From IMG/VR virus record IMGVR_UViG_3300003323_000343, positions 1-42,370 of that record: 42,370 nucleotides of DNA; one strand, 5' to 3'. A program made the translations under genes and the position numbers. The notes below the pieces were generated by a model. That model did not search any database. It saw only the letters and a program-made list of their open reading frames with translations, and was not told the origin of the DNA. Each line of letters starts with the position of its first letter. Positions within the stretch are counted from its first letter, which is position 1. Shown here one piece after another: positions 6,084 through 37,029 of the stretch. Source of the stretch: a virus.

Positions 6084-6120
6084 CAATTAACCGCGTGCGC
6101 GCGACCACACACTGACCCCA
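6084..6120 (+). promoter_or_regulatory. Late promoter-like element, copy a (tail fibre)
   Basis: CAATTAAC at 6084-6091, a 16-base spacer, CACACT at 6108-6113, then GACCCCATCAG. It matches elements at 10814, 14693, 30113, 32060 and 36986 in sequence and spacing, and lies 23 bases before the fibre ATG. The CTGACCCC at about 6112-6119 can also pair with GGGGTGTCAG before the ATG, which would mask the ribosome binding site in a long leader. Promoter activity is inference. Confidence 0.5.
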
Positions 6121-6136
6121 TCAGCAGGGGTGTCAG

Positions 6137-9100
6137 ATGACCGCAGCCACGTTTCCGCTTGCCAGCTCTCTCCGCCAGTCCGACGCGCTTGTGGGTGACG
6201 GCGTCACCACTTTGTTCGGGCCGTTCAATTTCCGTACCTTCGCTCCGGAAGATATCGGCGTTTTGATGAAAGAGGCCGGCGATCTGCGCTTTTCGCTGCT
6301 CGACAGCGGCTATGTCGTGCTGCCGATCGACAATCCGGACGATCCGCAGGACTGGAACCTGTTCTATGTGCGCTTCTCGGTGGCGCCGGCGTCGACGACG
6401 CAATTTTACGTCCAGGGCATGCGCAACCAGAACCGTTCGATGGCGGTGCGCAAGGCCAACCAGATCGACACCGACGCGATCGACAAGCAGCTCTCGCAGA
6501 TCGGCGTGGTGCAGCAGGAACAGAGCCGCGAGCTCGGCTATGCGGTCAAGACCGATCGCGGCATCGATCCGCTCACCATCATCGATGAACCCGAGGCCGG
6601 CGACACGCTGATCGCCGGCGGCGACGGCACCTTGCGCACCGGCCCGAATGCTACCGACCTGATGGCGGTGGCGACGCGGGCGCAGCAATATGCCGACGCG
6701 GCCGCAGCGGCGCGCGATGCGATCGCTGTGCCGACGATCAATGCGACGCTATTCACCGGCGCCGGTTCCGGCCCCTACGACCTCGGACGCACGATCCTCT
6801 CTGCTGCGGCGCTCCAGGTCTATCTTAACAACGAAATCCTCCTGCCGGGCGAAGTGACGGTCTCCGGCCACACGTTCACGCTCGTTGGCTATGCGCCGAC
6901 CAGCGACGACAAGATCCTGGTGATCGACACGACGCCGATTTCCATCGGCAAGCCGAGCGGCAATTCTGTCGACGACAATTCCCTCGACCCGACCAGCTTC
7001 ATCGGCAAATTCGCCGCTTCGGCGCCGAACCTGCTCGGCGCCTTTGGCATCGAGGACGACGGCACCGACCAGACCGCAAAATTCCCGGCTCTGGTCGCGC
7101 GCGCCGCCGGCGGCGTCGTCGACTTCGGCCAGAAATTTCCGGCGGGCGACTGGCCCGAGGGCATCCGCATCGAGAACGGCGGCATGACCATGGCCGGCGC
7201 CCTGGTGCCCGGGCAGAACACGCTCAGGATGGAAGGCTTTCGCCTGACCCGGTCGAATTCCTACGACAAATGGGCGCAGGACAAGGCGCATGTGCTGCCG
7301 CGCGGCGTGCTCTGCTGCGTCTATGTATCCGGCTCCGGCCACCATTCGGCCGACAATATGGTGGTCTGCAAGTTCAGCCATGATGGTGGCGCCAGCTGGA
7401 GCGCCCGCAAGGTGCTGATCGCGCCGGAAACCGAGCTGCAATCGACGCAGACCGGCAACGGCAATGACAAGCTGGCCTGCATGTCGGCCGGCTGCACCAA
7501 TGACGGCCGGCAGTTCCTGCTGTGGATGACTTACGAGCTCTCCGGCCACCGGCATTTTCTCTGGCACCGCAAGGCGCCGGACCATCGCAAGATCAGCTGC
7601 ACGGTGCAGACTTTCATCGGTGAAAGCCGGCTGCGCATCGCCTATGCCGGCCATGGCTACTATGCCGGCGATCCGGTGACCCTGCCCGCTTTGGTCTGCG
7701 GCGGCAACGATATCGGCGCGGCCGGCGCGATCAACGGCCTCACCAAGCCCGGCGGCGGTCTGTCCAACCTTTTGGTCACGGCGGCCGACACCGGCTGGTT
7801 CGAGGTGACGCTCAATGGCACGGCCAGCGCTTCACAAGCCGGCATCGCCACCACGGCGACGCTGCAGAACGGCTGGGGTCCGTTCGTCAAGACGGAAATT
7901 TCCAGCGCGCTGCAGACGGCCTATCTGGCGCTGTGGCCGAGCCTGCCCGGCGCCGGACTGCCCTATCTGCACGGCAGGATGATCGCCGACAATGGCGATA
8001 TCATCGCCTTTCTCTCGACCGCCAACGGCGCGCATCTGGTGCGCATCGCTTCGCTCTACAGCGTGGCGCCGACCGTGACGAAAATCCCGAATATCGGCCA
8101 GGGCGGCGAGGTGACCGGCGTCGCCTGCGGCTCCGGCCGCTATGCCGGCTTTACCCGCGGCACGGATGTCACCGGCACGTCGGACGGCCGCTCGCTGTTC
8201 TGGCGCACCGACGACAATTTCGCCACGACGACCGTCGAGGAAGTGCGGCCGGACGACAGCCACGGCGGCCAGATCTGGGACGAAATCACGCCGATCTGCC
8301 TCTGCAATGGCAAGCTGATGGCGGCGCGGGCCGAACGCACCGACGATCCGCTCGACAGCCAGCCGGCGCAGCCGGCCTCCTGCCGTCTCTATCTCTGGGA
8401 GGCGGATGTCGACGACGCCTTCGCCATCGGCATCAATGCGGCGAAATTCGAGGAGATTGCCCGCCTCCACTGGTCCGGCGCCAAGACGGCACAGAGCTCG
8501 CCCGGCGTCGGCGTCGGCTCCTGGGCGGTGCATACGCCGCCGCCGGATGCGATCAACAACGCCATGACCGGGCTCTCGCCGAACAAGCAGACGGCCTATC
8601 TGTTCATCGGCTGCGAGATCGAAAACCAGACCGGCAAAGACGGCGACTGGAACCGCGGCCAGCTCAACGTTATCCGCTTTACCGACCTGGCGCAGCCGCA
8701 GCGCGCCATCCAGGATGGCGGCGGCGTGTCGGTCGGCGGAACGGACGACATGTTCCTCCGCGAGCTCGCCAGCGGCGAACTCGGCTCCGGCTTCGCCGCG
8801 TCGACCGGCGCCTATATCGGTTCGCCGCCGAGCTCGCCGGTCGATCTCACCACCTCGCCCGATTACAAGGGTGGCGGCATCCGGCTTTACAAGGACAAGA
8901 CCGGTTTCGTTCATTGCTTCGGCAGCCTCGATTACAGCGGCCCGATCAACACCGAGGCGATCGCCTTCGTGCTCGATGAGGACTGGCGACCGCGCTACGA
9001 CGTCGAATGGATCGTGAGCGCCGGAGCCGCGACGATCGCGCGCACCGGTGGCACCAACCTCGTGGTGCGCATCCTCGGCTCCAACAACATTTCTGCCAGC

Positions 9101-10701: not shown

Positions 10702-10840
10702 TGCGCCGCAGCGCTACGAGCTGCTGCTCGCCTGCTACCGATCCGGGCAGATCCCGGAGGCGGCGTGGCATGAGCATCTGGCAAACGAGCACTTTCGCCG
10801 CTGGGTCGAGCCGCAGTTAAGCGCACGCGGCCGGCCCTAA
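10634..10840 (+). CDS. Small hypothetical protein overlapping spike end
   Basis: Up to 68 codons, starting inside the end of the spike gene in another frame. A TTG at 10682 is an alternative start, giving about 52 residues. The part after the spike stop (RYELLLACYRSGQIPEAAWHEHL...RRWV) looks like real helical protein with the G/C-ending codons of the genome, whereas the part before it is a frame shadow. No strong ribosome binding site is visible. It runs into the promoter-like element before the endolysin. No family recognised. Confidence 0.4.
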   Translation: MPASSTSAQQQTPGNALRSPPGDAPQRYELLLACYRSGQIPEAAWHEHLANEHFRRWVEPQLSARGRP

Positions 10841-10859
10841 TCTGGGCTCGATCAGCGAG
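10814..10859 (+). promoter_or_regulatory. Late promoter-like element, copy b (lysis)
   Basis: CAGTTAAG at 10814-10821, a 16-base spacer, TAATCT at 10838-10843, then GGGCTCGATCAG and an AGGGG ribosome binding site at 10857-10861 before the endolysin ATG. This is the copy closest to a bacterial -10 and the best reference member of the family. The -35-like part is not TTGACA, so a phage activator may be needed. Confidence 0.55.
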
Positions 10860-10868
10860 GGGCCGTTC

Positions 10869-11492
10869 ATGAACCGGAAATTCTTCTTCGACACCGTCCG
10901 GCCGATGTTTCCGGGCGGCATCCTGACGCCGGGCCAGGTCGAAGGCATGGGCTTCATCCTCGACAAGCTCGACCAGGACGGAAAATTCCGTCTCGACGAT
11001 CAGGCATACATGCTCGCCACCACTTTTCACGAGACAGCCGCCGAAATGCAGCCGGTGCGCGAGACGCTGGCGCCTTCCGACGACGAGGCGATCCGCCGGC
11101 TCGACCAGGCTTTTGCCAAGGGCCGCATGCATTGGGTGACCAAACCCTATTGGCGCAAGGACAGCGCCGGCCGCAGCTGGCTCGGCCGCGGCTATGTGCA
11201 GCTGACCCACAAGGCCAATTACCAGGCGATGACGAAGATCCTCGACGTCGACCTGGTGGCGGATCCGGCGCTGGCGATGACGCCAGAGGTGGCGATCCGC
11301 ATCATGTTCGAGGGCATGCGCCGGGGTGTGTTCACCGGCCATGCCCTGCACGACTATCTCGACGGCGTGGATGAAGGGGCCGCCGAGGATTATCGCGAGT
11401 TCGTCAACGCGCGAAAAATCATCAACGGCACCGACAGCGCGGACAAGATCGCAAAAGCGGCGCTGACCTTCGAGCATGCCCTGAAGGGCTAA
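10869..11492 (+). CDS. Endolysin, GH19 (chitinase-like) family
   Basis: Predicted protein of 207 residues, ATG 10869 preceded by GAGGGG. The fold signature is that of glycoside hydrolase 19 endolysins: TTFHETAAEMQPVRE with the likely catalytic Glu55 and second acid Glu59 or Glu65, then LGRGYVQLTHKANY (about 103-116), which shapes the substrate groove, and INGTD near residue 190. It should cut the glycan strand of peptidoglycan at the end of infection. No signal peptide is seen, so export depends on a holin, for which the next gene is the candidate. It sits directly behind a late promoter-like element and between spike genes rather than in a compact lysis cassette. Confidence 0.85.
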   Translation: MNRKFFFDTVRPMFPGGILTPGQVEGMGFILDKLDQDGKFRLDDQAYMLATTFHETAAEMQPVRETLAPSDDEAIRRLDQAFAKGRMHWVTKPYWRKDSAGRSWLGRGYVQLTHKANYQAMTKILDVDLVADPALAMTPEVAIRIMFEGMRRGVFTGHALHDYLDGVDEGAAEDYREFVNARKIINGTDSADKIAKAALTFEHALKG

Positions 11493-14692: not shown

Positions 14693-14735
14693 CAATTACT
14701 GCCGAGCTAGCCGGGCTACATTGAACTCATCGGGG
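14693..14735 (+). promoter_or_regulatory. Late promoter-like element, copy d
   Basis: CAATTACT at 14693-14700, a 16-base spacer, TACATT at 14717-14722, then GAACTCATCGGGGG. It matches the family seen at 6084 and 10814 and lies 37 bases before ATG 14760. Promoter function is inferred from recurrence. Confidence 0.45.
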
Positions 14736-18326: not shown

Positions 18327-18694
18327 GCGCATTTTTGAAGAGCGCTGATGCAATTTGCGCGTCGATTAACGATTGCCACTCAGGTTGTGCGCGCGATAAG
18401 CGTAGGCACCGACGTCAATCAACGGAAAGAGGATCGATAGCGCGGCCGGAAACGCACGCGCGAATTTTAAGTGCAAACCAGCAAAAGCCAGCGCGTTTGT
18501 TAAGTGCAAAAATAATTTTGGTGCTTAGGGAACTTTTTCGAGGAAGCGCGAAAAGCCAGCGCGAATGTTAAATGCCAACCAGCAAAAGCCAGCGCGAATA
18601 TTAAATGCAAAAATATTTATCGGATTTTTGAAATGCACGCGCGAAACTTAAATGCGACGCATTCTATTCGCGACATTTATTCGCATCTGCGAAA
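18320..18694. other. Gene-free switch region with iterons
   Basis: About 375 bases between the leftward operon promoter and the end of the repressor gene. It is AT-richer than the rest of the genome and holds five iteron-like repeats, a half operator (18396) and a TTCGCA/TGCGAA pair (18680-18693) beside the repressor stop. No convincing gene is seen. Confidence 0.6.
18458..18658 (+). repeat. Five iteron-like direct repeats
   Basis: Copies at 18458-18477, 18491-18510, 18559-18578, 18592-18611 and 18639-18658 share GCGCGAAtnTTAAatGC, usually followed by AA. Steps are 33, 68, 33 and 47 bases, so pairs recur at about three helical turns. The stretch AACCAGCAAAAGCCAGCGCG repeats between copies 1-2 and 3-4, showing that a two-copy unit was duplicated (period 101). 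Iterons of this kind usually bind a replication initiator or a partition or regulatory protein; which one here is unknown. Confidence 0.75.
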
Positions 18695-19345
18695 TCAGTG
18701 CCGCAGGCGAAGAACGCCGATGCCTGTGCCGGCGATCGACACACGCTCCTCGTCGACATGCTCCGGCCGCATCGGACCGAGGCGAACCGAATGCGAGCAG
18801 ATGAAAGGCGGCTGATACACGCGAATGACCGTTTCCGCGGTGCCTCGGCCATAGTCGACGATCTGTGCCACAACAATGTCGCCAGGTTTCGGCCGCAGAT
18901 TTTGGTCAACGATGATAACGTCGCCCGGCAGAATGCCCATCCCATCCAGGGCGGCGCCCTTCATGACCCAGGCCTCGACGCCGTTGCGTCCTTTCTTTGC
19001 CTCGTCGACGGCCGCCTTGACCCATCCGCCCGGCTGGCGGTCGTCTAGCTCGAACGGCACGGCGTCGAGCTCGCTGAAGCCTGGGCGGGCTCTGCCCGGA
19101 AATTGGTAAGGTCTAAATCCGGTAAAATTGGCAATCTGTTCGAGTGAGTTCTGCTGGATCGTCAGTACGCCGGTATCGTCATTGACAAAGCGCGTGATGG
19201 TAGACGCAGCCATGCCAGACTTGAGCGCAAGTTGCGAAAGCGATAGCCCCATATGAGAGGCTATCGCCTTGATCCATTCTTTCGTCTCGCGCTGGTCATG
19301 TGCCATGCGCGCAAAATTATTGTGTGTCGACGCAATACTGAACAC
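18695..19345 (-). CDS. LexA/CI-like phage repressor with degenerate S24 domain
   Basis: Predicted protein of 216 residues. GTG at 19345 is preferred over the ATG at 19306 because AAGAGG (19356-19351) stands at the right distance before it. An N-terminal HTH (about 24-78: WIKAIASHMGLSLSQLALKSGMAASTITRFVND) is followed by a linker and an S24-like C-terminal domain (about 122-215: GAALDGMGILPGDVIIVDQNL, PGDIVVAQIVDYG). The position of the catalytic serine (GxSM) is Ala132 (GAAL), and the lysine strand reads TVIRVY without lysine. No Ala-Gly cleavage site is evident in the linker. It should bind the ATAAGC...GCTTAT operators beside both early promoters. Loss of the Ser/Lys dyad suggests that induction is not by LexA-type self-cleavage. 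Confidence 0.85.
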   Translation of the reverse strand: MFSIASTHNNFARMAHDQRETKEWIKAIASHMGLSLSQLALKSGMAASTITRFVNDDTGVLTIQQNSLEQIANFTGFRPYQFPGRARPGFSELDAVPFELDDRQPGGWVKAAVDEAKKGRNGVEAWVMKGAALDGMGILPGDVIIVDQNLRPKPGDIVVAQIVDYGRGTAETVIRVYQPPFICSHSVRLGPMRPEHVDEERVSIAGTGIGVLRLRH

Positions 19346-19362
19346 AAAAACCTCTTTGCGAG

Positions 19363-19404
19363 ATAAGCAAATACGCTTATGACGATAAGCAAATCAGTTG
19401 GCAA
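19363..19404. promoter_or_regulatory. Operator region between repressor and cro
   Basis: The palindrome ATAAGCAAATACGCTTAT (19363-19380) and a half-site ATAAGCAAAT (19385-19394), 22 bases (two turns) apart. A - strand promoter candidate TTGCCA (19404-19399), 17 bases, CATAAG (19381-19376) would drive the repressor and overlaps the operator, as does any rightward promoter here. The TTGCCA/17 layout equals that of the leftward operon promoter. Confidence 0.65.
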
Positions 19405-21122: not shown

Positions 21123-21629
21123 ATGACGGACGTGCAGACCATAGAGCAGCAGCGAAAACGCTATGACATTTCCGTCCGGGCCTTGTGCTCGGCCGCAAAC
21201 ATCGACGACAGTACCTATGGCCGCCTGCTGCGCGGCGAGCAAAAAGCGCGCGGCTCGACGATCGCGCGGCTCGAGGCCGGGCTGAAGGCGGCGCGCAAGG
21301 GCGATGCCAATACGCGGCTCGACCTGATCTGGCGGCTTTTGACCGCCTTGATGGCCTTCGACCGCAACATTTCGATCGAGCGGCTGAAGGCGCACAACCC
21401 GCAGGACAAGGCGACCAGCGACCCGAAATGGTGCGAGGTGCAGGAGCTGCGCGACCTGGCCGTCTATGCCCTGCATGCCGTGGTGGGCGTGCCGAATGTC
21501 GAGATCGCCCGCGTCGCCAAAGTCAAGCCGGCGGCCATCACCTATGCCGTGCAGCGCGTCGAGGAACGGCGCGAAAAGCTGCTGACCGACAAGATGTTCG
21601 ATCTTTTGGAAGAGGCGGTGTCAGGATGA
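21123..21629 (+). CDS. Dual helix-turn-helix DNA-binding protein
   Basis: Predicted protein of 168 residues with two candidate DNA-binding parts. An XRE-like HTH covers about 12-60 (YDISVRALCSAANIDDSTYGRLLRGEQKARGSTIARLEAGL). A second, DnaA domain IV-like segment covers about 105-155 (LRDLAVYALHAVVGVPNVEIARVAKVKPAAITYAVQRVEERR). The combination would allow recognition of two sites. In the early operon, just before methyltransferase and primase, it is a candidate replication initiator or activator. The likely targets in this genome are the iterons, the GGTTAG cluster or the late promoter-like elements, none proven. It overlaps the methyltransferase gene (ATGA). Confidence 0.65.
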   Translation: MTDVQTIEQQRKRYDISVRALCSAANIDDSTYGRLLRGEQKARGSTIARLEAGLKAARKGDANTRLDLIWRLLTALMAFDRNISIERLKAHNPQDKATSDPKWCEVQELRDLAVYALHAVVGVPNVEIARVAKVKPAAITYAVQRVEERREKLLTDKMFDLLEEAVSG

Positions 21630-22306
21630 AAGCACTCGACCTGTTCTGTTGCGCCGGGGGGGCATCCGATGGCCTGGTCAGGGCCGGTTTCGATGTGACG
21701 GGCGTCGACATCAAACGCCGGCCGAACTATCCATACCGTTTCATCGAGGCTGACGCGGTCTCGCTCGACATCGACCTTTCCGAGTTCGATTTCATCTGGG
21801 CCTCGCCGCCATGTCAAAGGTATTCTCTCTCCACCCGCAGCCGTAACAATTTCGACGCGGAGAACTATCCGGATCTCATCGATCCGATCCGCCGCAAGCT
21901 CGCAGGCCATCCTTTCACCTGCATCGAAAACGTGCCGCTGGCGCCCTTGCGGCGAGATCTGACGCTCACCGGGCCTTCTGTCGGGCTCCGCAGGATCGAA
22001 CGCAAGCGCTGTTTCGAGCTGAGCTTCCTATGCCTTTCGCCCGGTGCGCCGTCGCTGCCCAGAAGCACATGGGAGAGCGGCGAAGCGATCACGATCACGA
22101 CCAGTCTCAGCTGCAAAAGCCACTTCTATCCGCGCAAGCGTGCCGGCAAAGCAGGCCGCGTGCCGCCAAGCGAGGCGTGCGAGGCAATGGGCATCTTCAG
22201 GCCGATGACCGGGCATGAAGTCGGCGAGGCCATTCCGCCGGCTTATGCGCAGTTCATCGCGACCGAGGCAATCCGCCAAGGCTGCGGCCGGAGGGCTGCC
22301 GCATGA
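21626..22306 (+). CDS. C5-cytosine DNA methyltransferase
   Basis: Predicted protein of 226 residues, short for the family but with the core motifs: motif I LDLFCCAGGASDGL (4-17), motif IV SPPCQRYS with catalytic Cys63, motif VI ENV (101-103), motif VIII-like RRIERKRCFE (122-131), and a motif X-like GEAIPPAYAQFIA near the end. The target-recognition region is small. It would methylate cytosine in phage DNA, probably to evade host restriction; no partner restriction endonuclease is present. It is coupled to genes on both sides by ATGA overlaps. Confidence 0.85.
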   Translation: MKALDLFCCAGGASDGLVRAGFDVTGVDIKRRPNYPYRFIEADAVSLDIDLSEFDFIWASPPCQRYSLSTRSRNNFDAENYPDLIDPIRRKLAGHPFTCIENVPLAPLRRDLTLTGPSVGLRRIERKRCFELSFLCLSPGAPSLPRSTWESGEAITITTSLSCKSHFYPRKRAGKAGRVPPSEACEAMGIFRPMTGHEVGEAIPPAYAQFIATEAIRQGCGRRAAA

Positions 22307-24471: not shown

Positions 24472-25815
24472 ATGGCAAAGCAGGTGAAAAATGCGCAAGA
24501 GCCAGCAGCAGCAGAGCCGCAGGCGCTCGACGACAATCAGCCGCAAAGCGGCGAAGAACAGGATGCTGCGGCGGTGGTGGCGGGAGACGATAGTGCGCCC
24601 GCTGCAGCAGAGCCGGCAGAACAGCCGACTGAACCGGTCACGGAGACGGCAGGAGATCCTGTCGCGGCCGTGGGTGAAAATGCCGGGCAAGACGTGGACC
24701 AGGCCGCGCCGGCATCGGATGTGGCTGAAGGGCCATCCGCCCAGGATGGTGACGGAAACGAAGGCGGACAAGATCCTGCGCCAGGATCTGCAGGCGATGA
24801 AGGAACGGATGCTGGAGCAGATCCATCAAGCCAGTCAGCGCCGCAAGCAGACGCTGGAACGGATGGCGGAACAGCAGGCGACGACACCGCTGCAGGCTCT
24901 GGCAGCGGAGATCCAGAAGCACCGGGACATGACGGGGGAGAGCCTGCCCCTGCTGGTAATGGAACCGACGCCGGCGACGGAACAGGTGCCGTTTCCGACG
25001 CTGCTGGATCTCTCGACGCCGCAGCCGGCGACGCGGGACATGATGTCGGAACTGAGGCTGGAAATCCGCCAGATGATGCCGGAACTGCCACCGCCGGAAA
25101 TCTCGGAGGGAACACTCCTTCTCCATCAGCGCCGATTGGCGGCGGAGATGCAGAAACGGCTGGACAGGATGACAATGCAGGCACTGCTGGGGCACAGCCG
25201 GCCCAGCCACAGCCCGCTGGAGACGCCGGCAGCACTGGAGCCGCCGACACTGGAGCTCAAAGCGGAGCACCCGCAAGTGCGGACGGATCCGCAGGAGGCG
25301 ATGCGGGACATGGTGGCGTTCGGGACGGGAGCGTGGATCCAGCCCCCGCCCAAGACATAGGCGATGGCAGCGCGGCCGAGGGCATGTCCTTCGAGGAATT
25401 CTACCAGGATCTCGACCGCGAAACCTATTATGCCGCCGAGGCCACGCTTTCGGCCCTGCACGCGATCGCCGAATGCCAGGACGCGCATGCGATGATGAGC
25501 GCCATCCTGCGGCCGGATGCCGCCAAGGTTGCGACGGCGCTGCTCAGACAAATCGGCGAGCGCGCCACAGCGGATGTCATCGCCCAGGAGCTCTATCTCA
25601 AAGGTCATCGCGAAAGCGGTCAACTCGACCCGATTGAGCGCCTGGTGATCGTGCTTTTCGTCAGCACGCTGCGGCACATTGAGGATTTCAAGCTCACGAT
25701 GAAGCGGCTTTACGAAGAGCAGGAAGCCGAGAAGAACAAGCCAGCGCCACGCAAGATCCCGCTCGAGGACACGATGCTGGAGCCCAGCGAAGGGCCGATG
25801 GAGAGGACCTACTGA
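24472..25815 (+). CDS. Long disordered acidic protein with helical C-terminus
   Basis: Predicted protein of 447 residues, AAGGAAG before ATG 24472. Residues 1-300 are low-complexity, rich in A, G, D, E, P and T (many DAG/DGG/TAG-type units), surely disordered. Residues about 305-447 are an ordinary helical domain (SFEEFYQDLDRETYYAAEATLSALHAIAECQDAHAMM...). The disordered part uses GGA, GCA, GCT and GAT heavily, unlike the G/C-ending codons of the rest of the genome; the C-terminal domain returns to normal usage. A second frame (24491-25360) is also open here but is explained as a by-product of GNN codons. No function recognised. Confidence 0.6.
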   Translation: MAKQVKNAQEPAAAEPQALDDNQPQSGEEQDAAAVVAGDDSAPAAAEPAEQPTEPVTETAGDPVAAVGENAGQDVDQAAPASDVAEGPSAQDGDGNEGGQDPAPGSAGDEGTDAGADPSSQSAPQADAGTDGGTAGDDTAAGSGSGDPEAPGHDGGEPAPAGNGTDAGDGTGAVSDAAGSLDAAAGDAGHDVGTEAGNPPDDAGTATAGNLGGNTPSPSAPIGGGDAETAGQDDNAGTAGAQPAQPQPAGDAGSTGAADTGAQSGAPASADGSAGGDAGHGGVRDGSVDPAPAQDIGDGSAAEGMSFEEFYQDLDRETYYAAEATLSALHAIAECQDAHAMMSAILRPDAAKVATALLRQIGERATADVIAQELYLKGHRESGQLDPIERLVIVLFVSTLRHIEDFKLTMKRLYEEQEAEKNKPAPRKIPLEDTMLEPSEGPMERTY

Positions 25816-28782: not shown

Positions 28783-28883
28783 GCTCGCCTGCTGTTCGCT
28801 GCGACGGCTTGTAACGCCTCACCGCCGACCCGATGGACACCATCGTGCCGGCGATCGGCGCAGCCGTCTTGCGGCAGGCGAGC
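28783..28883. other. 101-base nested multi-stem fold
   Basis: Four nested stems: GCTCGCCTGC/GCAGGCGAGC (28783-28792 with 28874-28883), GACGGCT/AGCCGTC (28803-28809 with 28862-28868), CGCCGA/TCGGCG (28823-28828 with 28855-28860) and CGATGG/CCATCG (28831-28836 with 28840-28845). All are perfect and in order, making a long bulged hairpin in a gene-free stretch. It may be a structured RNA or a packaging/replication site. Confidence 0.6.
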
Positions 28884-28950
28884 AACGAACGCAGCGCGAT
28901 CCGTGGGAGATTGGCAGCGTCGGGGCCGATTGCGCCGCCGGCAAGCGCCT

Positions 28951-29185
28951 GGTTAGGCGGGTTAGGGAGCGGTTAGATCCGACCTAACCGTGAAACATAA
29001 ATAAAATCAACGACATGAGCGGGTGGTTAGATGGTTGGGTCTCGATCTATGGATTATCTCACACGCGCGCATGCGCATAGCGCGAGACTTTTACACCTAA
29101 CCATCTAACCGTCAGGATATATATTTGAATTTGTTGAAGAAACACGGTTAGATTTGAACCTAACCGCGATCTGACCGGCCTAACC
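28951..29185. repeat. Cluster of ten GGTTAG/CTAACC hexamers
   Basis: GGTTAG at 28951, 28960, 28971, 29025 and 29146; CTAACC at 28984, 29097, 29105, 29160 and 29180. They form CGGTTAG...CTAACCG pairs (28970-28990 and 29145-29166) and a 12-base inverted pair (29025-29036 with 29099-29110) around a GCGCGCATGCGCA core. AT-rich tracts lie between them. The cluster is just upstream of the small terminase gene, so terminase (pac/cos) binding or a replication origin are the leading readings. Confidence 0.75.
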
Positions 29186-29210
29186 GATTATTTTAATAGG
29201 GAAAAATGCC

Positions 29211-29914: not shown

Positions 29915-30197
29915 ACATCGAAGATAAGCAAAACTTAACCGCAGCCCTCGACATGACCATTCCTTTCCGCTGCGGCGCGCGCCGCCGGCCGCCGGACCCT
30001 ACCCCCGGCCCTCGCCTGGGGCATTGCCGGCCAGGCGGCGCTTTCAAAAACCGCGCGCGCCACCCCCGTGGGGGTGTGCGGCATCACACACACCGGCCTT
30101 TCGGCCTATGCCCGCTTAAGCCAGCCCGCGGAAAAATATTATTGGGCCATCGGCTGGGCGCGGGCGCGCGGGCCACGGGTCGAAAGGGTTATGGGTC
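29915..30197. other. Gene-free leader of large terminase
   Basis: About 280 bases with several GC-rich hairpins, for example CACCCCCGTGGGGGTG (about 30062-30077) and GGCC-TTTC-GGCC (about 30095-30106), and the promoter-like copy g. Open frames here are arginine/proline-rich and look non-coding. A long structured leader before a large terminase is unusual. Confidence 0.5.
30113..30155 (+). promoter_or_regulatory. Late promoter-like element, copy g (large terminase)
   Basis: CGCTTAAG at 30113-30120, 16 bases, TATTAT at 30137-30142 (a good -10), then TGGGCCATCGG. 55 bases before the large terminase ATG. Same layout as copies a-e. Confidence 0.5.
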
Positions 30198-31817
30198 ATG
30201 GGCATCGATTTCCAGCATTACCGGCCGCCGGGGCCGATCGGCGCGGCCTTCATCGAAAGCCATGGCCCGATCGACATGATCATGGGGCCCGGCGGCTCCG
30301 GCAAGACAGTCGCGAGCGTGATCAAGGGGCCGACGCTGGCGGCGCGCTATGCGCCGGTGTGCAAGGATGGCTGGGTGCGCGTCAAGACGCTCTGCGTCCG
30401 CGACACCTATCGCGACTTCGCCCGCACAGCGCTGGCCTCCTGGTACAACATGTTTCCGGAAAGCCACCAGTGGACGCAGAGCCACGAGGGCGGCCAGGAC
30501 AGGCCGGTCAAGCATGTGCTCGCTTGGCGCGCGCGCCGCGGCGGCGACGAGATCAAGATCGAATACACGATGGAAACCGGCGCCCCCGGCCAGGACGAAA
30601 TCGAAGGTTTCTACAAGGGCTATGAAATCACCTTCGGCTGGGCGAACGAAGTCGACATCCAGCACCCGAACACGCTGCCGCTGATGCTGCAGCGCTGCGG
30701 CCGCTTTCCGCCGGTGTCGATGATCGCCGACAGCGAGCTCGAGCGCATGAGCCGCGACGGCCGCGCCATGATGCAGGCTATGAACCTATCCGTCGCGCCC
30801 GGCGAGATCGTCCTGCCGCGCATCGTCTGGGGCGACTTCAACCCGCCCGACGTCGAGAACCACGCCTATGTCACGCCCTTCGGCGAAAGCGCCAAGCCGG
30901 GCCAGATCGTGCGCAATGTCACGCCCGGCTGGAACGGTTTCTGGCAGCCCGGCGGCCTGTCGCCGGACGCGGAGAACCGCACCGGCAAGCCGCGCTCCTC
31001 CTACGAGCTCGAGGCGGCGACGACGAAGGACAAGAGCCTGGTGCGGCGCATGGTCCATTCCCTGCCCGCCTATGCCAAGGACGGCAAGCCGGTCTACGAG
31101 AGCGAGTTCAACCCGGAGCGCCACGTCGCCGACCAGCCGCTGATGGCGGTGCGCGAATGGGGGCTGACGATCGGCGTCGACGCCGGCGGCAGCCCGGCCG
31201 CGACGATCGGCCAGATCAGCCCCTACGGACAGAACCGGCTGCTGCGCGAGCTGGTCAGCGAACCCGGCACCGGCCCGACGCGCTTCGGCCAGATGCTGAT
31301 CACGCTGCTGATGAGCGAGTTTCCGGGCTTTGCCATCCGGGGCGCCTGGGGCGATCCGAGCGCTTTCTACGGCCTCGACAAGCAGACCGATGAATTTCAC
31401 TGGATGAACGAATTCATGAAGGCGGTGCGGTTCAACATCCAGCCGGCGCCGTCGAACGAACCTGGCATCCGGCACGAGGCGGTGAAACACTATCTCAACC
31501 TGAACATCGACGGCCAGACGCCGGGCTATATCGTTGATCCGAGCTGCCGCAAGATCAAGGGCGGTTTCGAAGCGCACTACAAGTTGAGCAAGCAGAATTC
31601 GGCTTACGAAACCGACAAGCTGCAGGCGGTGAAGAACGAATATTCGCATCCGCACGACGCCGAGCAATATCGCTGCCTCGGCTTCCTCGGCCTTGCCGGA
31701 CTGTCCGAAGCGATCTCGAAACAGGTTCTGCCGGGCAATGTGGTGAACCTCAACCAGCTCGGCCGCCGCCAGCAGCAGCAACCCGCCCAGCGCGACCGGA
31801 TGGATTTCAACATTTGA
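30198..31817 (+). CDS. terL: Large terminase subunit
   Basis: Predicted protein of 539 residues. Walker A GPGGSGKT (residues 30-37), a Walker B-like ITFGWANEVD near 143-152, and a nuclease domain beginning IGVDAGGS with Asp328, followed by AIRGAWGDPSAFYG near 378 with the second metal-site aspartate. This is the ATP-driven motor and headful or site-specific nuclease that packages DNA through the portal. The nuclease sequence type fits T7/podovirus-like terminases. Its stop overlaps the TTG start of the next gene. Confidence 0.9.
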   Translation: MGIDFQHYRPPGPIGAAFIESHGPIDMIMGPGGSGKTVASVIKGPTLAARYAPVCKDGWVRVKTLCVRDTYRDFARTALASWYNMFPESHQWTQSHEGGQDRPVKHVLAWRARRGGDEIKIEYTMETGAPGQDEIEGFYKGYEITFGWANEVDIQHPNTLPLMLQRCGRFPPVSMIADSELERMSRDGRAMMQAMNLSVAPGEIVLPRIVWGDFNPPDVENHAYVTPFGESAKPGQIVRNVTPGWNGFWQPGGLSPDAENRTGKPRSSYELEAATTKDKSLVRRMVHSLPAYAKDGKPVYESEFNPERHVADQPLMAVREWGLTIGVDAGGSPAATIGQISPYGQNRLLRELVSEPGTGPTRFGQMLITLLMSEFPGFAIRGAWGDPSAFYGLDKQTDEFHWMNEFMKAVRFNIQPAPSNEPGIRHEAVKHYLNLNIDGQTPGYIVDPSCRKIKGGFEAHYKLSKQNSAYETDKLQAVKNEYSHPHDAEQYRCLGFLGLAGLSEAISKQVLPGNVVNLNQLGRRQQQQPAQRDRMDFNI

Positions 31818-32248
31818 TCACCATCCGCCCCGCCACGATCGAGGATTGCCTCGAGCGCGCCGGTTCCCGGCGCACGGCGCGCAAGCGCATGATCCTCGCG
31901 CACCAGACCGGCGAAAGCTACGCGATCGAGGAGGGTCTAGACCCGGGCGGTCTATTGGCGCTGGCCTTCATCGTGCCGGTCGATGGCGAGCGCCGGGAAT
32001 TCTGCCTGTCCCTCACCTCGCGTGCGCGTGCACACATGCGAGAGCTATGCCGTTCTGCGCAGTTAATCCTGGGCCGCCTCGCCCAAGATGGGCCTATCAT
32101 CTGCTACGTCGTGCCCGAAAACCGCGCCGGCGTCCGGATGGCGCGGATCGTCGGCTTTTCGCCGGATCCGGATCATCGCTATCGGTGGATCCATGGTTTG
32201 GGGCGGCAACGAAATGACGGAAATCCTGAGCCTGTTCGGCGGCAATAG
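31814..32248 (+). CDS. GNAT-fold internal virion-type protein
   Basis: Predicted protein of 144 residues beginning at TTG 31814, overlapping the terminase stop (TTGA). The start ITIRPATIEDCLE and the late ICYVVPENRAGVRMARIVGF segment match GNAT acetyltransferase-like phage proteins. T7 gp13 (internal virion protein A) and relatives have this fold; there it is needed for morphogenesis rather than known catalysis. Here it precedes the portal rather than following the tail genes. A promoter-like element lies inside its coding region. Confidence 0.65.
   Translation: MITIRPATIEDCLERAGSRRTARKRMILAHQTGESYAIEEGLDPGGLLALAFIVPVDGERREFCLSLTSRARAHMRELCRSAQLILGRLAQDGPIICYVVPENRAGVRMARIVGFSPDPDHRYRWIHGLGRQRNDGNPEPVRRQ
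32060..32103 (+). promoter_or_regulatory. Late promoter-like element, copy c (head genes)
   Basis: CAGTTAAT at 32060-32067, 16 bases, CAAGAT at 32084-32089, then GGGCCTATCATC. It lies within the GNAT coding sequence, 124 bases before the small gene that leads into the portal. Preservation of the motif within coding sequence strengthens or weakens the case depending on its codon freedom, which is untested. Confidence 0.4.
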
Positions 32249-35503: not shown

Positions 35504-35558
35504 CAATTAAGGCGCTCCCGTCCGTGCGAGCCTCAATCTCGCATACCGGACGGGAGCG
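35504..35558 (+). promoter_or_regulatory. Capsid leader hairpin with weak promoter-like copy f
   Basis: A stem of 12 perfect base pairs (CGCTCCCGTCCG 35513-35524 with 35547-35558), a 3-base bulge, 6 more pairs (TGCGAG/CTCGCA) and a 7-base loop. No T-run follows. CAATTAAG (35504-35511) with GAGCCT 16 bases on is a weak member of the late element family. The hairpin sits 102 bases before the capsid ATG and may be an mRNA processing or stability element for the most abundant virion protein. Confidence 0.55.
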
Positions 35559-35660
35559 ACCTGGTCGAGTAGCGGGCTATCCTTCACCGGACCCTGCGAA
35601 AACACCGGCTAATCGGCCCTCACGGTGATCATCGTCCAATCACTATTTGAGGGTTATCCC

Positions 35661-36985: not shown

Positions 36986-37020
36986 CAATTAACCAGCCTT
37001 GAGGCTCGCCACAATCGGCG
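36986..37020 (+). promoter_or_regulatory. Late promoter-like element, copy e (tail tubes)
   Basis: CAATTAAC at 36986-36993, 16 bases, CACAAT at 37010-37015. It shares GCAATTAACC with copy a. Its -10 falls in the loop of the terminator that closes the head genes, so stop and restart of transcription would be packed together. Confidence 0.45.
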
Positions 37021-37029
37021 AGCCTTTTT
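37002..37029 (+). terminator. Terminator between head and tail genes
   Basis: 9-base arms AGGCTCGCC/GGCGAGCCT (37002-37010, 37017-37025), 6-base loop, then five T (37025-37029). Strong rho-independent form. Confidence 0.85.

Follow-up and report, generated by a model that had tools for sequence, protein, structure and literature searches.

Promoters served by the host sigma70 polymerase together with a phage activator are represented by the MotA/AsiA middle promoters of T4 and by those dependent on P1 Lpa, P2 Ogr and Mu C. The promoter family described below resembles them in that a sigma70-type -10 is kept, a putative activator site replaces or helps the -35 at a fixed distance, and the element is repeated before each gene block. 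It differs from them in the box and in the fold of the candidate activator, and no partner resembling AsiA or the zinc-finger types has been identified. Activator-dependent late promoters of phages are a known kind; the protein architecture and the site code reported here are new.

In Caulobacter, GafY is a direct activator of the genes of a gene transfer agent (GTA) and binds domains 3–4 of RpoD directly (PMC11150451). The candidate activator of the present phages, the product of the gene at 21123 (hereafter 21123), would be, like GafY/GafA of alphaproteobacterial GTAs, a DnaA-domain-IV-like activator of virion genes (PMC11150451, PMC9638019, PMC9632790). Like GafA, it possesses two putative DNA-binding heads, and the late promoters resemble GafY/GafA targets as sigma70 promoters with a poor -35. 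Unlike these proteins, 21123 carries an XRE head in front and has no DUF6456/GafZ part. Its putative box lies at the -35 of many promoters, whereas GafY uses one distant site at about -120 together with IHF, and the characterised GafY site ACTATG differs from the CANTTRAC box. Finally, 21123 is found in complete temperate phages and GafY/GafA in gene transfer agents.

The window, i.e. the whole stretch of DNA analysed, is a 42,370-base IMG/VR virus record coding for podovirus virion proteins (portal phrog_332, capsid phrog_3437 and tail tubes), a leftward integrase and a CI-like repressor. It also contains a 447-aa ORF with a very high content of A, G, D and P (24472–25815; AT skew 0.33). The lineage is an uncultured one of temperate podoviruses, present in many Hyphomicrobiales genomes, and its hosts are soil- and plant-associated bacteria. 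No close cultured member was found in the phage collection searched, and literature searches revealed no earlier description of such an element in these phages. A portal search confirmed by tblastn gave 29 viral loci; a further 15 came from named genomes of Hyphomicrobiales (Aureimonas, Aurantimonas, Mesorhizobium, Stappia, Aminobacter and others). The first set of relatives comprised 34 non-redundant related prophage loci (562 kb); the second, independent set of 40 further loci (679 kb) was retrieved with a portal profile.

In the original prediction, six elements with a 16-base gap and a weak seventh at 35504 were proposed as late promoters used by host polymerase and a phage activator. Coordinates, letters and gap of the six are all as claimed, and so are those of the seventh, which is not weak as supposed but a genuine orthologue of the pre-capsid site. 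One further site, at 28883 (CAACGAAC-N17-AGATT), had been overlooked. The sites of the window are as follows.

28883–28912, + strand: late promoter A, CAACGAAC-N16-GAGATT, degenerate box, 328 bases before terS; its position is that of site A in 24 genomes
30113–30142, + strand: late promoter B, CGCTTAAG-N16-TATTAT, before terL; 18 genomes
32060–32089, + strand: late promoter C, CAGTTAAT-N16-CAAGAT, inside gene 31814–32248, before the portal genes
35504–35533, + strand: late promoter D, CAATTAAG-N16-GAGCCT, before the major capsid gene at 35625; 29 genomes
36986–37015, + strand: late promoter G, CAATTAAC-N16-CACAAT, before tail tube A
6084–6113, + strand: late promoter E, CAATTAAC-N16-CACACT, before the fibre gene at 6137; orthologous site in 22 genomes
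10814–10843, + strand: late promoter F, CAGTTAAG-N16-TAATCT, before the endolysin gene at 10869
14693–14722, + strand: late promoter-like site, CAATTACT-N16-TACATT, ahead of the last late gene; its box is the weakest, and it is the least certain of the window sites

The placement of the elements before virion and lysis blocks holds in every relative; among the relatives, sites are found repeatedly in front of terS, terL and the genes for portal, capsid, tail tube, fibre and lysis. Sites of class A lie 330–540 bases before terS, those of class D 120–170 before the capsid gene and those of class E 55–70 before the fibre gene. Transcription from promoter E is predicted to start at about 6120. The predicted +1 is distinctly a purine at sites B, C, D and G, and not distinctly so at sites A, E and F. 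In a single record (G004), near-duplicate fibre/lysis modules each carry their own E and F (oriented positions 7367/9749 and 46677/49059). The region before terS at 28951–29186 is non-coding and richer in A+T, with CTAACC/GGTTAG repeats in both orientations, and could possibly be an origin or a packaging site.

CARTTAA occurs in the window five times on the + strand (6084, 10814, 32060, 35504 and 36986) and not once on the - strand. When each site was left out of the matrix in turn, it ranked 3–8 among about 85,000 positions (30113 was the exception, at rank 16), so the window taken alone is suggestive. The relatives support the element far better. When relatives were scanned with a matrix built on the six window sites, as had been proposed along with the prediction, the 34 loci (562 kb) gave 25 virion-strand matches and none on the opposite strand at a score of at least 14, and 62 and 3, respectively, at a score of at least 12. 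A fixed pattern applied to the 40 further loci (679 kb) matched 57 times on the virion strand and twice on the opposite one. Same-place sites in related phages are not independent, yet the element stands at about seven unrelated places in each genome, and the existence of the promoter family, judged from these sequences, is nearly certain.

The refined consensus is G-CANTTRAC-N17-A-NNN-T, with exactly 17 bases in the gap. In 18 oriented genomes, A-NNN-T was found at offset 25 from 83 of 125 virion-strand CANTTRAB boxes, a test that selects on the box only; most other offsets gave about three, and the opposite strand gave 1 of 87. The two fixed bases correspond to -11A and -7T of a sigma70-type -10, and each has a frequency of 0.98 in the relatives, partly owing to selection of the sites. 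In sigma70 numbering, the spacer between TTRAC and the -10 is 15 bp, two below the usual 17. The GATCAG-like start region that had been assigned to the element is present in the window and is not conserved in the relatives; it was therefore rejected as a part of the element.

Each genome carries five to eight copies of one conserved promoter, and the -35 variants change together within a genome: CGTTTAA at four sites of one relative (G040), CACTTAAC at five sites of another (G042), and CAATTGAC in the Mesorhizobium phages. Such a concerted shift points to a trans-acting phage factor. Outside prophages, the strict pattern was counted about 42 times in six whole host genomes (28.9 Mb) and about 41 times in the reversed control; since these genomes contain no excess, the element is phage-specific.

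Site C is coding and in frame, near the end of the gene preceding the portal genes. In 17 of 18 genomes the leucine at this site is written with the rare codon TTA/TTG, compared with about one in eight leucines gene-wide, which argues for selection on DNA, and on this ground a pure coding coincidence at 32060 was rejected. The host gene of promoter C (31814–32248, in the interval between terL and portal) is conserved in all relatives and has an acetyltransferase-like C-terminal motif.

Several promoters are overlaid on structures that could affect RNA entering from upstream.

37002–37029, + strand: intrinsic terminator hairpin with a T run; its loop is the -10 of promoter G
35513–35558, + strand: inverted repeat (about 12 bp) around the -10 of promoter D
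6114–6137, + strand: leader inverted repeat of site E; the 5' arm directly follows the -10 and the 3' arm lies over the ribosome site

At both E and F, the inverted repeat starts directly past the -10 and its second arm extends to the ribosome site. The repeat at E in the window alone has p = 0.065; among the E-class leaders, 12 of 21 have p <= 0.05 individually, and the arm sequences differ between genomes. The site at 36986 was also considered as a terminator only; this was rejected, because the orthologues keep box and -10 and the -10 is the hairpin loop.

A related arrangement is described for T4 gene e, whose read-through RNA is masked by a leader hairpin (PMC3014915). In the leaders of T4 genes e, soc and 49, the late promoter lies within the 5' strand of the hairpin masking the ribosome site (PMC3014915), and the present sites are similar. 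Here, in distinction from T4, the arrangement is predicted at the fibre and lysis promoters throughout the lineage, and the capsid and tail promoters carry terminators or inverted repeats with a putatively similar role. A transcript starting about seven bases past -7T would be without most of the 5' arm, and read-through RNA would be terminated or left untranslated by the terminator at G, the long inverted repeat at D and the ribosome-site hairpins at E and F. It is proposed from this overlay that only promoter-initiated RNA is productive, the silencing of read-through RNA being deduced from the predicted structures.

The box of the late promoters recurs in a second context, directly downstream of cI. 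The features concerned are listed below.

18449–18655, - strand: array of five units of box (CA[TC]TTAA) and TTCGCGCNGGCTTTT-like palindrome, directly downstream of cI
18695–19345, - strand: CI-like repressor, adjoining the array
21123–21629, + strand: candidate activator of 168 aa, XRE-type HTH and C-terminal GafY/DnaA-domain-IV-like HTH

In the window the array consists of five 26-nt repeats. Arrays directly downstream of cI comprise 76 units in 23 genomes, with 2–7 units each, mostly 35–36 bp apart; a clear array was not found in about 12 genomes that carry the promoters. Each unit consists of the late-promoter box followed by a genome-specific palindrome whose centre is fixed 15.5 bp from the box start (76 units, 23 genomes), a profile conditioned in part by a palindrome filter, although the arrays were first found without it. 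None of the 76 units has the -10 bases; the box, used here without a -10, is thus in itself a target for a protein. Within a genome, the boxes of the array are similar to those of the late promoters (p = 0.0001), and this likeness is lost after portal phylogeny is removed (p about 0.42). One genome (locus L168, G025) contains two arrays, at 1242–1317 and 2603–2639, with different palindromes (TGGGCGTCCA and GGGCTAGCCC).

The array palindrome tracks the N-terminal recognition region of 21123 (Mantel r = 0.33, p = 0.0002, n = 23), and the correlation persists when portal phylogeny (r = 0.25, p = 0.0006) or CI (r = 0.44, p = 0.0004) is controlled for. The palindrome does not track CI given 21123 (r = 0.007, p = 0.44, n = 15). 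Two natural swaps make the coupling directly visible: G008 and G018 have CI proteins 93% identical and different N-termini and palindromes, and G008 and G011 have CI proteins 37% identical and are alike in N-terminus type and palindrome. The array palindromes were rejected as CI operators, because CI given the N-terminus of 21123 explains nothing; the different repeat in the cI-cro gap of the window, ATAAGC-N6-GCTTAT, also speaks against it. The ATAAGCNNNNNNGCTTAT-like repeats of this gap (19360–19395), similar in several relatives, are likely to be the CI operators.

In fold, the modelled C-terminal HTH of 21123 resembles DnaA domain IV, with Z about 10; the rows of the structural alignment below the DnaA matches are mostly N-terminal XRE domains and are uninformative on other folds for the C-terminus. 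The resemblance makes a role in replication possible. The C-terminal profile matches the ORF beside DUF6456 (gafYZ) in four hosts with E values of 1.7e-11 to 1.3e-13, and in whole genomes it finds gafY and not dnaA. DUF6456/GafZ (PF20057) is absent from 16 phage records, with a positive signal in Caulobacter and in 5/5 host controls. The regions upstream of host gafYZ were scanned for the box and gave no convincing match. The 21123 family is present in 37 of 40 records, the remaining three being short contigs. Of the proteins considered, the dual-HTH protein already named as a candidate in the original prediction is thus the best-supported putative activator, owing to the coupling of its N-terminus to the palindrome, its GafY homology and its presence in 37/40 records. 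Directly after it, an ORF at about 21626–22306 is DNA methyltransferase-like; in tblastn it has 83% identity to the copy in a Mesorhizobium phage (G011), far above other genes.

The -10 half keeps both bases critical for sigma70 and the -35 half is phage-specific, which favours host polymerase with an activator, as first supposed; a phage-specific activator of the late promoters is likely. Plain host sigma70 promoters with a TTRAC -35, a short spacer, a degenerate -10 and no activator could account for the conserved -11A and -7T and for the TTGAC core in the Mesorhizobium clade. They are nevertheless improbable, since the spacer keeps one sub-optimal length of 15 bp throughout, some boxes (CACTGAAC and CGTTTAAC, for example) have no TTGAC, host genomes show no excess and the arrays use the box without a -10. 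It is even less probable that a phage-encoded sigma factor or an unrecognised RNA polymerase reads both halves. The strict spacing and two-box form would suit such a factor, and the C-terminus of 21123 has a sub-threshold similarity to sigma region 4; but sigma70 region 4 exceeds the curated cut-off in 0 of 40 records, with positive controls, 21123 has no region-2-like part, and the box occurs in the arrays without a -10. The earlier comparison with T7 is apt for gene arrangement, with multiple copies before virion and lysis blocks, and fails for the element, which is bipartite and sigma70-like. In distinction from T7, no single-subunit RNA polymerase was found: no RNA polymerase family was seen in the 40 records, where PF00940 was silent as it was in the controls, and the window ORFs scanned gave no match to such a polymerase. 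A conserved RNA or packaging signal instead of a promoter would agree with the hairpins overlapping several sites. It is scarcely credible, as the hairpins vary by site class while the box and ANNNT stay constant, the 17-base gap is exact and the one-strand bias is tied to gene starts.

A more serious alternative, still unlikely, retains activator-dependent promoters but assigns the box to another phage protein, 21123 acting at the array only, as a replication initiator or an early regulator. The similarity of its C-terminus to the origin-binding domain of DnaA and the iteron-like array are consistent with this. Furthermore, box variants do not track the C-terminus after removal of portal phylogeny (p about 0.11), and covariation between box and C-terminus was dropped as proof. 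Because these correlations are lost, the reading of the box by the C-terminal head is based on adjacency, homology and co-occurrence. Against the alternative, the array units carry the late box at a fixed distance from the palindrome coupled to 21123, no DNA-binding protein besides CI and 21123 was found in common with the distant clade, and the closest host relative of the C-terminus is GafY, an activator, and not DnaA.

The best explanation of the whole is that 21123 is the activator of the late promoters, to which a probability of about 0.65 can be given. Host sigma70 would open the -10 half (A-NNN-T), and the GafY/DnaA-like C-terminal HTH of 21123 would read the CANTTRAC box at the -35, holding sigma region 4 and the polymerase 15–17 bp upstream of the -10. 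The N-terminal XRE HTH could read the genome-specific palindrome beside the array box. The array could serve as a high-affinity home site for 21123, with a function in auto-control, control of the early operon or replication. Upon induction, 21123 would accumulate and the five to eight late promoters would fire. A tentative extension of this scheme, rated at somewhat less than even odds, is that the GafY-like head reads a universal late box and the fast-changing XRE head reads a self palindrome near cI. A second immunity-like specificity, independent of CI, could then tie late firing, and perhaps replication, to the phage's own genome. The late activators of phages would then have a common origin with the GafY-type activators of GTAs.

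The analysis provides a base-resolved late promoter code for a temperate podovirus lineage of Hyphomicrobiales and names its probable activator, a relative of GafY/GafA, whose DNA sites are poorly defined. Through this kinship, the DNA target of a GafY-type domain at a promoter can be put directly to the test, and the 23 genomes in which the HTH and the palindrome coupled to it both vary represent a ready specificity data set.
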